Shown here piece after piece: positions 2,789-37,602 of a stretch of 37,602 nucleotides of DNA. The notes below the pieces were generated by a model. That model was given only the letters and a program-made list of their open reading frames with translations, searched no databases and was not told where the DNA came from. The DNA is from a bacterium (lineage in GTDB: Bacteria; Campylobacterota; Campylobacteria; Campylobacterales; Sulfurimonadaceae). Within the stretch, counting starts at the first letter, position 1. Each line of letters opens with the position of its first letter. The position numbers and the translations under genes are program-made. Location of the stretch: positions 1 to 37,602 of the forward strand of contig JAHJEG010000031.1 of NCBI GenBank assembly GCA_018825665.1. Direction: 5' to 3'.

Positions 2789-5263
2789 ATGAAAAGTAAA
2801 TCACATATTTTTACCGGTATTGAAAATTTGGACTTGTTCTTAAGAGAGAGTCTGATTACAGATAATTCCAGATTATTGATACAGATTTTTACTGCCTTGA
2901 CATTCAAAGATGATATAGCATCACTGATGAGGATATTTGCAGAAAAATTCCCCGATGCCTCTTTGATCGGTGCCACGCATGATGGTGCCATTATGGAGGG
3001 TAAACTTACAGATGAAGATCAGACTGTTGTTTCTTTCACACAGTTCCTTGATACGGATTTAAAAACGTATATCACTTCAACACCCTCAAACAAATCCTAC
3101 GAAACGGGATCTAAAATTGCAAAAAGGCTAAACGCCGGCGATATAAAAGCAATTATAACTTTCTCTGACGGTATTTTGACAAACGGAGAGGAATATATCA
3201 AGGGTTTAAGCTCCGTTAATTCCCAGGTGACTATTGCAGGAGGGATGGCAGGCGATCACGGTCTGCTCAGAGAAACCTATATCTTTACCAAAAACAGGAT
3301 TTACAGTCATGGCGCAGTAGCCGTAGGGCTCTACGGCAAAAGTCTGCAGGTCACAAGTGATTATAGTTTCAACTGGATTCCGATTGGCAAAAAAATGCTT
3401 GTTACCAAAGCAAAGGGCAATCATCTTTATGAGCTTGACGGTCAGTCTGCCATTAGTATTTATGAAAAATATATGAGCAAAGAGCTGGCACTGAGACTTC
3501 CGCAAATCGGAATAGAGTTTCCTCTTATCCTTGAACGGGAGGGGATAGTGATTGGAAGGGCTGTTTTAGATAAAGAAGAGGACGGTTCTCTGATATTTGC
3601 GGGCAATATTTACGAGGGGGAATATGTTCGTTTTGGAATCGGTAATATTGAGCAGATTCTGCGAGACAGCGAGTATCATGCAAAACAGCTCTCCCAGAGT
3701 CCGGCAGAATCCATATTTATCTATTCATGTATGGCACGCAGACGCTTTATGGGTTCCTATATAGAAACAGAACTGGAGCCTCTCAACAAAATAGCAACAA
3801 CGGCAGGATTTTTTACTTATGGAGAGTTTTTTTACGCTCGGGGAAAATCCCAGCTTTTAAATGAGACGATGACTGTTTTAGCTTTGAGCGAGAGTCCACA
3901 ATCCGCACATATCGGATGCAGTGGCAATATTGTTAAAAACTTCAGTTTTAGGATAAATCCATTACATGTACTTTCCCATTTGGCAAATACGGTCTCCAAG
4001 GAGCTTGAACAGCTCAATGAAACTTTGGAAAAACGTGTAAAAGACAGTACCAGCTATATTCTGAAACAGGTATACAAAGACAGACTGACAGATCTTCCAA
4101 ACAGATTGCGTTTGCTGAATGATTTGGGGCGCTTTAAAAATAGCTATCTCATCCTCATTAACATAAATGACTTTACCTCGATAAATGATTTTTACGGACA
4201 TAAGGCGGGAGATGAAGTATTAAGAAGACTGGGGGAAGAGATTTTATTGTGCGACAAGGGTTGTGTAAGCAATGTTTACAGGCTTGGCTCCGATGAATTT
4301 GCGATTATAAGTACGGATGAAAACATATCGGGCACGCTGCAAAAGCTTTATAAAAGATTTAATAATTTTGTTTTGGACTATGAGCATGATTTGATACATA
4401 TAACAATGACATCCGCAGCATCCAGGGTTAATGAAGCAGGTACGGTCTTGGCCAATGCAGATATGGCACTTAAAAGAGCCAGAAGAGAAAACAAGCCATA
4501 TCTTGTCTTTAATGAGGATATGCTCCTCTATGAAAAAAATAAAGAAAACATAGAGATTGCCAAGAGCATACGCATAGCTCTTGGCAATGAAAATATAATT
4601 CTTTATTATCAGCCTATAGTAAATATGAAAAGTAAAAAAATAGAAAAATACGAATCTCTGGTTCGTTTGGTAAAAGAAAATAAAGAGATCCTTATGCCTC
4701 TCAAGTTTTTGGATATATCACAAAAAATTCGCTTGTATCCGGAGATTACAAAAAGTGTAATACTGAATTCTTGTAAAAAGTTTCAAAATAATGACTTTGA
4801 ATTCAGCATCAATTTTTCAATAAGTGATATATTAAACACAAGAACGCAGAAATATTTATTTGAGAGTGTGGAGCAGTACGGAGTCGGCGGCAGGCTTATC
4901 ATAGAGATTCTGGAGACTCAGAGTCTCGAAGATGATATTGTCGTGAACTCCTTTATCAAAAAAGCACAATCGTACGGAATACGCATTGCCATAGATGATT
5001 TTGGCAGCGGATTTGCAAATTTTCAGCATATCACACGTATAAATGCGGATATCTTAAAAATTGACGGATCTTTGATAAAGATTATCGATAAAGATGAAAA
5101 TGCACGTCTGGTTGTAGAGACTTTGGTTATCTTCGCAAAGAAATTAAAAATGAAAACTGTCGCCGAGTTTGTACACTCCAAAGAGATATACGACATAATC
5201 AAAGAGTTGGAGATTGATTATGCGCAAGGATACTATATAGGAAAACCGAGCCCGTATATATAA
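2789..5263 (+). CDS. FIST sensor with GGDEF and EAL domains
   Basis: An 824-aa signalling protein. Residues 10-380 are FIST_N plus FIST_C, cytoplasmic sensor domains thought to bind small ligands such as amino acids. A short coiled coil (about 395-425) leads to a GGDEF domain (about 430-575) whose active motif is GSDEF at 500-504, so cyclase activity is uncertain. The EAL domain (590-824) has ESL at 622, INFS, LETQ, DDFGSG (736-741), KIDG, VAEF and QGYYIGKP; the metal- and c-di-GMP-binding acidic residues seem kept, so phosphodiesterase activity is plausible. No transmembrane segments. It is a single-gene unit preceded by 89 nt of AT-rich promoter-like DNA. Confidence 0.9.
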   Translation: MKSKSHIFTGIENLDLFLRESLITDNSRLLIQIFTALTFKDDIASLMRIFAEKFPDASLIGATHDGAIMEGKLTDEDQTVVSFTQFLDTDLKTYITSTPSNKSYETGSKIAKRLNAGDIKAIITFSDGILTNGEEYIKGLSSVNSQVTIAGGMAGDHGLLRETYIFTKNRIYSHGAVAVGLYGKSLQVTSDYSFNWIPIGKKMLVTKAKGNHLYELDGQSAISIYEKYMSKELALRLPQIGIEFPLILEREGIVIGRAVLDKEEDGSLIFAGNIYEGEYVRFGIGNIEQILRDSEYHAKQLSQSPAESIFIYSCMARRRFMGSYIETELEPLNKIATTAGFFTYGEFFYARGKSQLLNETMTVLALSESPQSAHIGCSGNIVKNFSFRINPLHVLSHLANTVSKELEQLNETLEKRVKDSTSYILKQVYKDRLTDLPNRLRLLNDLGRFKNSYLILININDFTSINDFYGHKAGDEVLRRLGEEILLCDKGCVSNVYRLGSDEFAIISTDENISGTLQKLYKRFNNFVLDYEHDLIHITMTSAASRVNEAGTVLANADMALKRARRENKPYLVFNEDMLLYEKNKENIEIAKSIRIALGNENIILYYQPIVNMKSKKIEKYESLVRLVKENKEILMPLKFLDISQKIRLYPEITKSVILNSCKKFQNNDFEFSINFSISDILNTRTQKYLFESVEQYGVGGRLIIEILETQSLEDDIVVNSFIKKAQSYGIRIAIDDFGSGFANFQHITRINADILKIDGSLIKIIDKDENARLVVETLVIFAKKLKMKTVAEFVHSKEIYDIIKELEIDYAQGYYIGKPSPYI

Positions 5264-6613: not shown

Positions 6614-8367
6614 TATTTTGCTTGTTCGCGTAATCTGATGTGGAGGTCGCGAAGTTGAGTATTGTCAACAGCGCTTGGAGCTTTTGTAAGGATGCAGGAA
6701 GCTTTTTGCGTTTTAGGGAAGGCGATAACATCACGGATGCTTGATTTTTTGGTGATAAGCATCATCAATCTGTCAAAACCTATAGCAAATCCCCCATGCG
6801 GAGGTGCTCCAAACTTAAGAGCGTCAAGAAGGAAGCCGAATTTTTCCTGTGCTTCTTCTTCCTCGATACCAAGAAGTTTAAATACCTCTTCTTGTACTTC
6901 TTCTTTGTGTATACGGATACTTCCGCCGCCAAGTTCAACACCGTTTAAAACAATATCGTAGGCAATAGATTCTATCTCTTCTACGTTGTCCTTATCTGTG
7001 TCTTTAGGCATAGTAAATGGATGGTGAAGCGCTTTTACTCTTCCGTCTTCCACTTCAAACATCGGGAAATCGACAACCCATACAAATTCAAATCTGTCTT
7101 TATCGATAAGGTTCATTTTTTCATGTTCGGCTATAAAGATTCTAAAGCGTCCCATATAATCCATGACTGTTTTTTTATCGCCTGCACCGAAGAAGACTAC
7201 ATCGCCCACCTCAAGTTCAGTTCTTTCAATGATAAGAGCGATATCTTCTTCAGAAAAGAATTTGATAAGGGGACCTTTAAGTCCGTCTTCTTTCATTTGA
7301 AAGTACCCAAGACCGTGTGCGCCAAATTTACGCACGAAATCCTCAAAGCTTTTCATTTCACGTTTGGAGAAAATCAGATCGGCTCCCGGAACTTTGAGAG
7401 CCTTGATTCTATTTACGTGAGGATGTTTAGCGATATTTGTAAAAATTTCGTTATCGCATCTCTCAAAAATATCAATAACGTCAACCATTTTAAGGTCGTA
7501 TCTCAAATCCGGTTTGTCAGATCCGTACCACTCCATGGCATTTTGATATGTTATACGGTTAAAAGGGGGTTTTATTTCAGTTCCACATGCCAGGAACATA
7601 GCGGCAAGTAAATCCTCCGCTACTTTGATTACATCTTCTTGGTTACAAAAACTCATCTCAACATCTATCTGAGTGAATTCAGGCTGTCTGTCGGCTCTTA
7701 GGTCTTCATCGCGAAAACATTTTGCTATCTGAAAATATCTGTCAAATCCGCCAACCATTAAAAGCTGTTTGAATAACTGAGGAGACTGAGGAAGAGCATA
7801 GAACTCTCCGCTGTGAACACGTGAGGGTACCAAATAATCTCTTGCGCCCTCAGGGGTCGATTTGGTAAGAATTGGAGTCTCAACTTCCAAGAAACCGTTT
7901 TCATCGAGGATGTTTCTTGCTGCAATTGCCGCTTTTGAACGAAGACGAAACGCTTCATACAAATCAGGGTCTCTTAGTTCAAGATAGCGGTATTTCAATC
8001 TTGTTTCTTCACCGACATTCTTATCTCCGATTACAAACGGAACCGGAGCGCTTTTGTTCTCTATCGTAAGTTCTTCAACTATGATCTCAATAGCGCCTGT
8101 TTTAAGACGAGGGTTTGTCAGTCCTTCACCGCGACGGCGGACTTTTCCCTTTACTATCAAAACAAATTCATCTCTGACGCTGTTAGCAACTTTATGTGCT
8201 TTTGCGCTGTCTTCTGGGTCACAGGTGAGTTGAATCAAACCTGTTTTATCTCTTAAATCAATAAAAATAATCCCGCCGTGGTCACGATAATTATTCGCCC
8301 AACCAGTTAAAACAACATCTTGTCCAACATTTTCTTCGCTTAAATCTGTACAGTAATGACTTCTCAA
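6613..8367 (-). CDS. aspS: Aspartyl-tRNA synthetase
   Basis: A 584-aa class II synthetase of bacterial type. It has an N-terminal OB-fold anticodon-binding domain (about 1-105), motif 2 ([18 protein letters not shown], near 215), the bacterial GAD insertion (about 285-410) and motif 3 ([13 protein letters not shown], near 525). It charges tRNA-Asp, and in many Campylobacterota it is non-discriminating and also charges tRNA-Asn for GatCAB; that is family knowledge. The start is TTG with AGGA upstream. One GGCATGTGGAA repeat lies in its coding strand (7581-7591), read as Ala-Cys-Gly-Thr. Confidence 0.95.
7581..7591 (-). repeat. GGCATGTGGAA copy 3
   Basis: Exact 11-mer in the coding strand of aspS, read as Ala-Cys-Gly-Thr. 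Confidence 0.85.
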
Positions 8368-8539
8368 AATAATAGAGTCCTATAAAAAATTTTTGCAGAT
8401 TATATCTAAAATCTACTTAGAACCAGTATAAGAGAAGATTTATTTATCCGAACAAGCTTCTGCTTCCCGAATATATATAAGTAATTATGATGAAAACTTA
8501 ATCATAATTGTAACTACAATGTAATCCTTGAGCTGTAAA

Positions 8540-35045: not shown

Positions 35046-35333
35046 TTAGTGTAGTGAGTTTAGAAGAACACTAATCAATACTATAACGATCTGAAGCGCT
35101 ACCACGATAACAAGCGGCGCGAGATCTATTCCATTAAAGTTTGTTGGAATAAATCTTCTCACCAATGAATAGGCGGGATGTGTTACACGATTCAAAAACT
35201 GTACAATCGGATTGTATGGATCCGGATTCACAAAACTAAGAAGGGCACTTATGATTATCACCCATACATACACATTAACCAATGTAAGAAAAATACTTCC
35301 TACTCCCTGAACAATCTCAATTACTGCACTCAT
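35046..35333 (-). CDS. YggT family membrane protein
   Basis: A 95-aa protein with two hydrophobic helices ([20 protein letters not shown] and [20 protein letters not shown]) around the conserved [20 protein letters not shown] segment of the YggT family, linked to cell division or osmotic response. It overlaps gltX by 4 nt. Confidence 0.88.
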
Positions 35334-36628
35334 TTTACAATCTCACCAATATAGTTTTTTAAATATTTATAGATCTCAGCGACATCAGGACCATGTTCTG
35401 CTCCTGTTAATAAAAGACGAAGAGGTTTAAAGAAATTTTTACCTTTTAGTCCAGATTCTTTCATAATATGATTTTTGAAATCTTCATACTCCTCAAAATA
35501 GGGTGCATTCTTGATAGTTTCAGCCATTATTTTTGCCTGCTCTTCAAATTCAGAGGGAATAATCTTGTCTGCAAAAATAGGTGCTATCTTGGATTTCAAT
35601 TCTTTTGTTGTCCCGGCTTCTTCCAAATAAACTTTTGCAAGTTTACCTATCTCCGTATCGGCAAAACCAACATATCTTGAAAGTTCTTTTGGATCCAGAT
35701 TTTTAAGATGCTCACGATTGATAAACTTCAGCTTATCTATATCAAAGCGAGCAGGGGATTTGGAAATGTTATCCAAGTTGAACCATTCTATAGCGTCTTT
35801 CATCTCAAAAATTTCGCAAGGAGGCTTGTTTCCTATTAATATTAAATAATTTGATATAGCTGAGGGCAGGTAACCCTCTTCTAAAAGCCATTTAACGCTA
35901 GAAGCATCATCTCTTTTACTCATCTTTTTACCATGGTCATTTAAGATAATAGGCAAATGTGCATATTCTATCTTCTTATCATAGCCAAGTGATGTTCTGA
36001 TTAGGTCTTGTTTAGGTGTGTTGCTCATATGATCTTCACCGCGAATAATCAGCGTTACGTCACTAAGCATGTCATCAACTGCACAGGCAAAATTATACGT
36101 GGGAGTCTTATCTTGTCTTAATATTATAAAGCTGTCTATTTCATTCGGATCAAAACTGATTTCACCCTTGATGTGATCTTTTACTATTATGGCATCATGC
36201 GGTTTTCTGATTCTAACTGTAAAAGGATTCATATTGTCTATAACAAGTTCGGCAGGCAAATCCGCACAGGCATCATCATATCTGTACGCTTCTTTATTCT
36301 CTTTTGCTTCAGCTCTTTTTTTATCCAGCCACTCAGTAGAACAAAAACAGTTGAATGCTTTTATCTCATGTAAGAGTTGTAGAGCCATAGCCGTATGGAA
36401 ACGAACATTTTGACTTTGATAAATAACCTGCGTATATTCGATACCAAAAAGAGCAAGTATGTCCAAAATCTCCTGGTCTTTTCCCTCTATGTTTCTTTCT
36501 TTGTCCGTATCTTCTATTCTTACAATTAAATCTTCATTTCTTTGCTTTGATACGATGTAGTTAAACAGGGCAACTCTAAGGTTCCCAATATGCATATCAC
36601 CGGTTGGACTAGGTGCAAATCTTAACAT
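35330..36628 (-). CDS. gltX: Glutamyl-tRNA synthetase
   Basis: A 432-aa class I synthetase with [12 protein letters not shown] (4-15) and KKMSKRDD (near 236). Many Campylobacterota have two such enzymes, one of which charges tRNA-Gln with Glu for GatCAB; which this is cannot be judged. It lies directly downstream of tRNA-Glu, on the same strand. Confidence 0.93.
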
Positions 36629-36713: not shown

Positions 36714-36788
36714 TGGTGACCCCAAGGAGACTTGAACTCCTGTAACATGGATGAAAACCATGGATCCTAACCGCTAGACGATGGGGCC
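36714..36788 (-). tRNA. tRNA-Glu (UUC)
   Basis: A 75-nt cloverleaf with the 3' CCA encoded. The acceptor stem pairs GGCCCCA with TGGGGTC, with one G-U; the anticodon TTC sits in the loop between paired arms, and the T arm contains GGAGTTCAAGTCTCC. It lies 85 nt upstream of gltX. Confidence 0.95.
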
Positions 36789-36912: not shown

Positions 36913-37458
36913 TTATTCGTAAAAGCTGCGAAGAGCTCTAATAATCACGGCATTCTTTGAAATACTTTCAGCTTTAGCATTATCATTTACTACTTCATAC
37001 AGGTCTAAAGGAAGAGAAATTGAAAAAGTTTTTGTTTCAATTTTTTTCTTTTTTGTCACCATAGCAACAACGCTTGTAAGCAATTCTATAATTTTTTTGG
37101 TATCTATCGGTTTTTGAATAAAACTGTTTACACCAACTTCAATAGATTCTGAGATCTTTTCAATATCATTACTTGCAGAAATAACAATAATGATTTGAGT
37201 AGGGCTTATTTCACGAATTTTACGCGAAAGCTCAATACCGTCCATGCCAGCCATTATAATATCAACAAAAACGACATCCGGCTGATATTTATTATATGTA
37301 GCTAATGCTTCTTCTCCATTAAAGCATGAGTGAACATCTGAAAAAAAGTTTTTAAAAGTTGAACTTAAAAGCTCATTCGTTACTTTTTCATCCTCAACTA
37401 TCATTGCTGTTAGTTTCTTAGTCTGTGTGGTTAATTGAACTAGATCTAAATTTGACAT
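36913..37458 (-). CDS. Response regulator with RHH output domain
   Basis: A 181-aa protein. Residues 16-130 form a CheY-like receiver: acidic pair Glu22/Asp23, phospho-acceptor Asp66, Ser94 and Lys116. Residues 143-181 (TFSISLPLDLYEVVNDNAKA and onward) match a ribbon-helix-helix DNA-binding domain of CopG/Arc type. A receiver joined to an RHH is unusual. No sensor kinase lies in the window. AGGAA precedes the ATG, and TATACT (37490-37495) is a -10 candidate. Confidence 0.85.
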   Translation of the reverse strand: MSNLDLVQLTTQTKKLTAMIVEDEKVTNELLSSTFKNFFSDVHSCFNGEEALATYNKYQPDVVFVDIIMAGMDGIELSRKIREISPTQIIIVISASNDIEKISESIEVGVNSFIQKPIDTKKIIELLTSVVAMVTKKKKIETKTFSISLPLDLYEVVNDNAKAESISKNAVIIRALRSFYE

Positions 37459-37489: not shown

Positions 37490-37495
37490 AGTATA
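37490..37495 (-). promoter_or_regulatory. -10 box for the response regulator
   Basis: TATACT on the minus strand, 31 nt before the ATG. The rest of 37496-37602 holds no gene; TATAAT at the last bases may belong to a plus-strand gene outside. Confidence 0.4.
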
Positions 37496-37602
37496 CACTT
37501 TTTTTGGCAACTTGCATAACATTAATAAACAAAAATAAAAAATTACACTCCTAAACTCCCTTTTTATGGGGTGTTTGAAAAAATATTTTTAAAGTTATAA
37601 TA

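Follow-up and report, generated by a model that had tools for sequence, protein, structure and literature searches.

A receiver–ribbon-helix-helix response regulator with candidate operator repeats at its own promoter in Sulfurimonas-like Campylobacterales

The window analysed here, i.e. the whole stretch of 37,602 nucleotides from a member of the Sulfurimonadaceae, contains near its end a gene for a response regulator with a receiver (REC) domain and a C-terminal ribbon-helix-helix (RHH) domain. Upstream of this gene the contig continues for 144 bp and then ends. The relevant features are as follows:

36913..37458, minus strand: REC-RHH response regulator gene, 181 aa (open reading frame with ATG start; orthologues)
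37078..37404, minus strand: receiver domain, residues 19-127 (Pfam Response_reg, E 8.2e-25; (beta-alpha)5 model)
37261-37263, minus strand: codon of the phospho-acceptor Asp66, within the receiver domain
36916..37038, minus strand: RHH domain, residues 141-181, with ribbon about 142-149, helix A 151-164 and helix B 168-180 (RHH_1; model; Foldseek and VIA-align)
37490..37495, minus strand: candidate -10 element TATACT, the closest match to TATAAT ahead of the start codon
37506..37530, minus strand: candidate operator GTT-N7-GTT-N6-GTT, direct repeats with steps of 10 and 9 bp (repeat analyses)
36714..36788, minus strand: tRNA-Glu(ttc), in the downstream slot that a kinase occupies in some relatives
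35330..36628, minus strand: gltX-type glutamyl-tRNA synthetase gene, the next protein gene downstream (context)
2789-5263, plus strand: FIST-FIST_C-GGDEF-EAL protein, 824 aa, with the sole FIST domain found in its own genome

The Pfam scan places Response_reg (PF00072) at residues 19-127 with 87.6 bits against a curated cut-off of 30.2 (E 8.2e-25), and the receiver profile is matched by all 24 orthologues tested. The acid pocket, phospho-acceptor aspartate, switch serine and lysine are complete in the query sequence (E22, D23, D66, S94 and K116), just as the earlier note had listed them. To follow these residues we used an alignment of 99 sequences. It combines the query with 98 loci from the set L050-L149, two of the 100 having been dropped for lack of a readable ATG start; some entries are the same contig from two collections, and the L110 entry is interrupted by a stop. 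All 99 sequences have E22, S94 and K116, and 98 have D23 and D66, the exception being L069. In the L069 orthologue (7909-8457) Asp66 is replaced by Glu and Asp23 by Ser while the RHH is intact, which suggests a natural pseudo-receiver or phosphomimic. The L110 gene copy (7001-7543) has an internal stop that may be an assembly fault; its contig contains N.

The tail of the protein matches RHH_1 at residues 145-181. For the whole protein this match has E 0.021 and 15.2 bits, below the curated cut-off of 20.5 bits, which is a score threshold and no structural trait. Searching residues ~135-181 against RHH_1 was a check proposed in the earlier note, and the last 46 residues alone give E 0.0015 and 18.8 bits, still below that cut-off. 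RHH_1 is matched at E <= 1 by 23 of the 24 orthologues (best 6.3e-5); there are also weak matches to HicB, a family with an RHH, in six orthologues and to RHH_5 in two. A tail profile match to a non-RHH fold, the outcome named beforehand as contrary, did not occur. We rejected a helix-turn-helix (HTH) or winged-helix output, for which there is no Pfam row in the query or the 24 orthologues. The best 25 of 102 NCBIfam rows are receiver-bearing proteins, some reaching residue 170 and all far below their cut-offs, and PADLOC matches (E 2e-4 to 3e-3) were discarded as weak and driven by the receiver. Against the PDB, phmmer gave no match to the tail at E <= 10, while a tail profile gave AvtR (E 0.5) and a CopG-family chain (E 1.0), both in register, together with two unrelated chains (E 0.7 and 2).

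Structure prediction agrees with this assignment. The AlphaFold2 model of the full protein (46 alignment rows, mean pLDDT 74) contains the receiver, a long helix at 120-136 and two helices at 151-164 and 168-180, while stretch 138-149 has pLDDT under 50 (mean 44 for residues 141-150). Modelled alone, residues 135-181 (the last 47) reach pLDDT 90.7. Both helices recur there, no strand is assigned, and the strand in this monomer model is an extended stretch only. The ribbon limits given above were taken from the RHH_1 match and the alignment, since the models show the ribbon extended or disordered. A disordered ribbon beside two formed helices would fit a fold that is completed by a partner. Foldseek ranks CopG first among PDB matches to the tail (TM 0.73, probability 0.99, E 0.08), followed by AmrZ, Arc, CdbA and PutA, with antitoxins also present among the best 50 of the 110 matches at E <= 10; none of the 110 reaches E 0.001. 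VIA-align gives Z 6.1 for PutA, 6.0 for Arc and 5.9 for CopG over 41 residues at 1.3-1.7 A, again with antitoxins among the matches; Z values of this size can reflect merely a common arrangement, and here profile, fold and rank order agree. The predicted strand-helix-helix fold of the tail thus matches RHH structures. The 50 PDB matches listed for the full-length model are, by title, receiver-bearing or CheY-like proteins.

Conservation of the tail is also strong. Mean column identity is 0.93 in the RHH vs 0.87 in the receiver (alignment A3), or 0.875 vs 0.814 (alignment A1). T142, T144 and S146 are present in all 99 sequences and S148 in 95, with Thr in the other four; ribbon positions of this type presumably face the DNA in CopG-like proteins. 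A chance or mis-called tail is ruled out by conservation in four families together with the agreeing fold, and the RHH assignment is more than chance. The union of a receiver with a C-terminal RHH is confirmed, and profile matches, conservation across the family and comparison of structures all uphold the CopG/Arc-type RHH proposed in the earlier note.

The gene is widespread in its own family. A match at E <= 1e-25 occurs in 124 of 151 genomes (own included), most of them 73-91% identical, and some genomes of the window's genus have no match (e.g. G019 and G031). Four of the 124 show a second match: one is a split gene and three are weak matches of ~40% in longer open reading frames. Across the order, 34 of 199 genomes have a match at E <= 1e-28, as have 18 of 200 in a phylum sample, in families f1, f4 and f23; the f4 proteins are 59-63% identical to the query. 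The RHH profile alone matches 48 of 298 genomes and adds one f6 genome, G507, with a REC-RHH protein, while a match in G215 (E 9e-4) was read as false, there being by eye no receiver in that open reading frame in L218. Orthologues thus occur in the window's Sulfurimonas-like family and in three others, and a search for the same architecture in other Campylobacterota, suggested at the outset, has found it in f1, f4, f23 and G507 of f6. The best 80 of 211 relatives are labelled Sulfurimonas, Sulfuricurvum, Sulfurimonadaceae, Helicobacteraceae or Campylobacterales, with two Arcobacter and one 'bacterium'. Relatives of the RHH are absent from the rest of the own genome (no second copy at E <= 1) and were not found in viral contigs; in plasmids there is one weak place (E 0.5). 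Searched with the full-length protein, plasmids yielded 2149 records; none reaches 60% identity, and the 12 listed are mostly ordinary response regulators at about 30% identity.

We also analysed the promoter of the gene. In the window the GTT repeats at 37506-37530 lie directly upstream of the TATACT box, and their GTT-N7-GTT-N6-GTT spacing has a chance of 0.0008 in shuffles of this stretch, as computed after the pattern was seen. Among 84 de-duplicated promoters we find 48 GTT pairs at 10 bp vs 4.2 expected from shuffles, with spacings of 6, 9, 15 and 16 bp likewise raised; these counts overstate the signal because the promoters share ancestry. The rate of 10-bp pairs is 0.50 per promoter in 74 gene promoters vs 0.047 in 321 control promoters from the same loci, which have lesser peaks of their own (9 bp, 0.121; 21 bp, 0.118 per promoter). 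On both strands of loci L070-L149, GTT-N7-GTT-N3-GTT occurs 13 times in gene promoters vs 3 times in the rest of the loci (685-fold), and GTT-N7-GTT-N6-GTT 8 vs 6 times.

The array varies in form among groups. All seven readable f4 promoters (four by script, three by eye; L222 ends too soon) contain GTT-N13-GTT-N7-GTT, with the last GTT abutting a -10-like box; the -10 boxes were picked by script, and their conservation at that position is partly by construction. Outside f4 and f23 the exact N7 pair is present in the last 110 bp of 44 of 92 promoters and absent in 48. GTT-N7-GTT is absent from the three f23 promoters, and G507 (f6) has, by eye, one ATGTTAC and no array. The steps differ between species (10+9, 10+6 and 16+10), and the upstream stretches of the neighbouring kinases described below contain GTT-N7-GTT in just 1 of 19 cases. 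In the f23 loci (L061-L063), where the repeats are missing, the regulator gene follows an lpxD-like gene (by eye) and a 72-aa gene, and the three are apparently in one operon. A protein of about 70-76 aa is encoded directly upstream of the regulator in 5 of 20 loci (L050, 7348-7560; L051; L054; L055; L068); its Pfam match to DUF3860 is sub-threshold (E 0.015).

An RHH functions as a dimer and is one of the smallest DNA-binding domains, and autoregulation through repeated sites is common among RHH regulators. On the evidence above, we think it probable that the protein is an RHH regulator under the control of phosphorylation, which binds the promoter of its own gene and probably represses it. 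We infer phosphorylation, dimerisation, DNA binding and the direction of control from the sequence, in the following steps: (i) a histidine kinase, whose gene is an adjacent convergent neighbour in some relatives and is elsewhere in the genome or unplaced here, would phosphorylate Asp66; (ii) helix 5 (residues 120-136) and then a short basic linker would relay the change in the receiver to the RHH; (iii) the RHH would act as a dimer, its DNA-binding state being favoured by phosphorylation of Asp66; and (iv) RHH dimers would bind GTT half-sites about one helical turn apart in the promoter of the regulator gene, immediately upstream of its -10 box. With the sites placed over the core promoter, autorepression (or tuning) of the regulator's own transcription would be the likely outcome.

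Phosphorylation may control dimerisation directly, as the earlier note proposed, but the step from receiver to dimer can be read in another way. Arc and CopG form folded RHH dimers without any receiver, and the tail could likewise be a constitutive DNA-bound dimer, with the receiver controlling contacts between dimers on the array or with RNA polymerase. Repeat steps near 10 bp would place dimers on one face of the DNA, as such contacts would have it, and the RHH of L069 is intact although Asp66 is replaced by Glu; the ribbon disorder in the monomer model is compatible with both readings. We regard a constitutive dimer as a serious possibility with somewhat less than an even chance. Quite unlikely, by comparison, is that the RHH serves dimerisation or protein-protein contacts and binds no DNA, with the promoter repeats serving another transcription factor. 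RHH folds are found in antitoxins too, several of which are among the structural matches and which also bind proteins, and the repeats, absent from the f23 loci and variable elsewhere, could belong to a different regulator. Against this, the putative DNA-facing ribbon residues (T142, T144, S146 and S148) are nearly invariant, and the repeats are far commoner at the regulator promoter than at controls.

The regulator likely has further target genes. It would be unusual for a transcription factor to control nothing but its own gene, and this counts against the main reading. A promoter profile was searched in 26 genomes, ten from other families, with 150 candidates scored per genome. It matched at least 30 loci, three of them before the regulator gene: the own genome (E 7e-5, the next match there being 0.04), G081 (1.8e-9) and G445 (1.6e-8, about 230 bp before the gene). 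The other 27 matches (20 inside open reading frames, seven intergenic without a common gene) reveal no second target, a result that cannot exclude further targets because the profile describes a single promoter class. Genome-wide, exact TGTTA pairs show no enrichment over a reversed control (9 vs 34 in the own genome, 40 vs 54 in G089, 28 vs 43 in G053), and the 30 of 77 TGTTA-pair matches inspected include five intergenic ones without a common gene.

We then focused on kinases that could act on the regulator. Among 106 loci of relatives, the regulator was recognised by its pattern in 104, the others being L107 (a variant residue) and L110 (the broken gene); L068 and L116 are the same contig. 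At least 600 bp are available downstream in 99 of these loci. A histidine kinase gene lies within 300 bp downstream in 19 of the 99, always convergent, and none in 80. That no kinase is adjacent, as had been stated earlier, thus holds for the visible side of the window genome and not for the lineage. All seven f4 loci in the set have a convergent kinase gene, the ends of the two reading frames overlapping in six. The one f4 kinase scanned with Pfam has FIST and HATPase above cut-off and FIST_C and HisKA below, and the f4 kinases adjacent to the regulator are about 60-79% identical to one another over their length among the pairs listed. Two f1 kinases scanned whole contain PAS and HATPase, with HisKA below cut-off; two further f1 kinases, scanned over 300 residues, contain PAS, and the opening stretch of these f1 kinases resembles, by eye, the FIST kinases.

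None of the flanking kinases has a clear orthologue in the window genome: 12 kinases are 34-40% identical to one of them, and the best own-genome matches of the remaining ones are 34-43% over the core. FIST kinases are seen only beside f4 orthologues, and the single FIST domain found in the window genome is in the protein at 2789-5263, whose FIST-GGDEF-EAL architecture rules it out as the partner kinase; the protein is possibly a NO- or heme-linked c-di-GMP enzyme. The Sulfurimonas regulator could, from this, be an orphan without a dedicated kinase pathway, i.e. a phosphorylation-independent or acetyl-phosphate-driven autorepressor. The 80 loci without an adjacent kinase, the low identities in the own genome and the loss of Asp66 and Asp23 in L069 all point that way, but 98 of 99 sequences retain the complete acid pocket, an argument for a continuing role of phosphorylation, and we consider an orphan unlikely.

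The gltX-type neighbour varies too. In the five examined loci where a gene read by eye as glutaminyl-tRNA synthetase (GlnRS) lies beside the regulator (L050, L051, L053, L054 and L055), it lacks KMSKR in all five, and its HIGH motif is also altered in four. The gltX-type genes of L052 and L068 are likewise without KMSKR, while those of the window, L056, L057 and L059, where there is no GlnRS gene, keep both motifs. From its sequence, the gltX-type gene beside GlnRS looks like a tRNA-Gln-charging GluRS decaying after the gain of GlnRS.

The protein can be compared with several known systems. Response regulators usually have winged-helix, HTH, Fis, LytTR or enzyme outputs, and an RHH is an unusual one. 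Like the OmpR/PhoB, NarL/LuxR, NtrC and LytTR types, the regulator has an N-terminal receiver with a full acid pocket, a linker and a C-terminal DNA-binding domain, but its output is an RHH of 40 residues. The CopG/Arc/MetJ regulators (CopG, AmrZ, PutA, NikR and CdbA) have ribbon, helix A and helix B in register with the tail, whereas here the RHH is C-terminal, behind a receiver. In known sensory RHH proteins the fusion partner is a metal-binding, enzyme or ligand domain. Searches of open-licence literature turned up no account of a bacterial receiver whose output is an RHH, which is not proof of absence. The nearest architecture found there is that of lokiarchaeal Arc-type proteins, which share an RHH and a receiver in one protein but in the order RHH, HisKA, REC (PMC5847659).

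The f4 kinases recall a further system. According to PMC12570481, FIST domains of NosP bind heme and sense NO, NosP being a separate FIST protein in a NosP/NosK/NosR system whose NosR output is a degenerate HD-GYP. The f4 kinase beside the regulator likewise carries FIST and FIST_C matches, but there FIST forms part of the kinase itself, and an RHH serves as output; by analogy, this suggests a NO or heme input for the f4 kinases only. A broader reading, which we put forward tentatively and hold to be on the improbable side, is a lineage-wide system in which FIST- or PAS-type kinases act on REC-RHH regulators, with phosphorylation directing how RHH dimers assemble step by step along a GTT array whose phase is about one DNA turn. 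If true, it would be an assembly-controlled genetic switch, unlike HTH-type response regulators.

In brief, REC-RHH proteins are widespread in Sulfurimonas-like Campylobacterales. There is now a candidate operator for them, and some relatives also offer a candidate partner kinase. They are a compact part for synthetic two-component circuits. As a conserved natural fusion, they also allow one to probe whether dimerisation of a receiver drives assembly of a DNA-binding domain.
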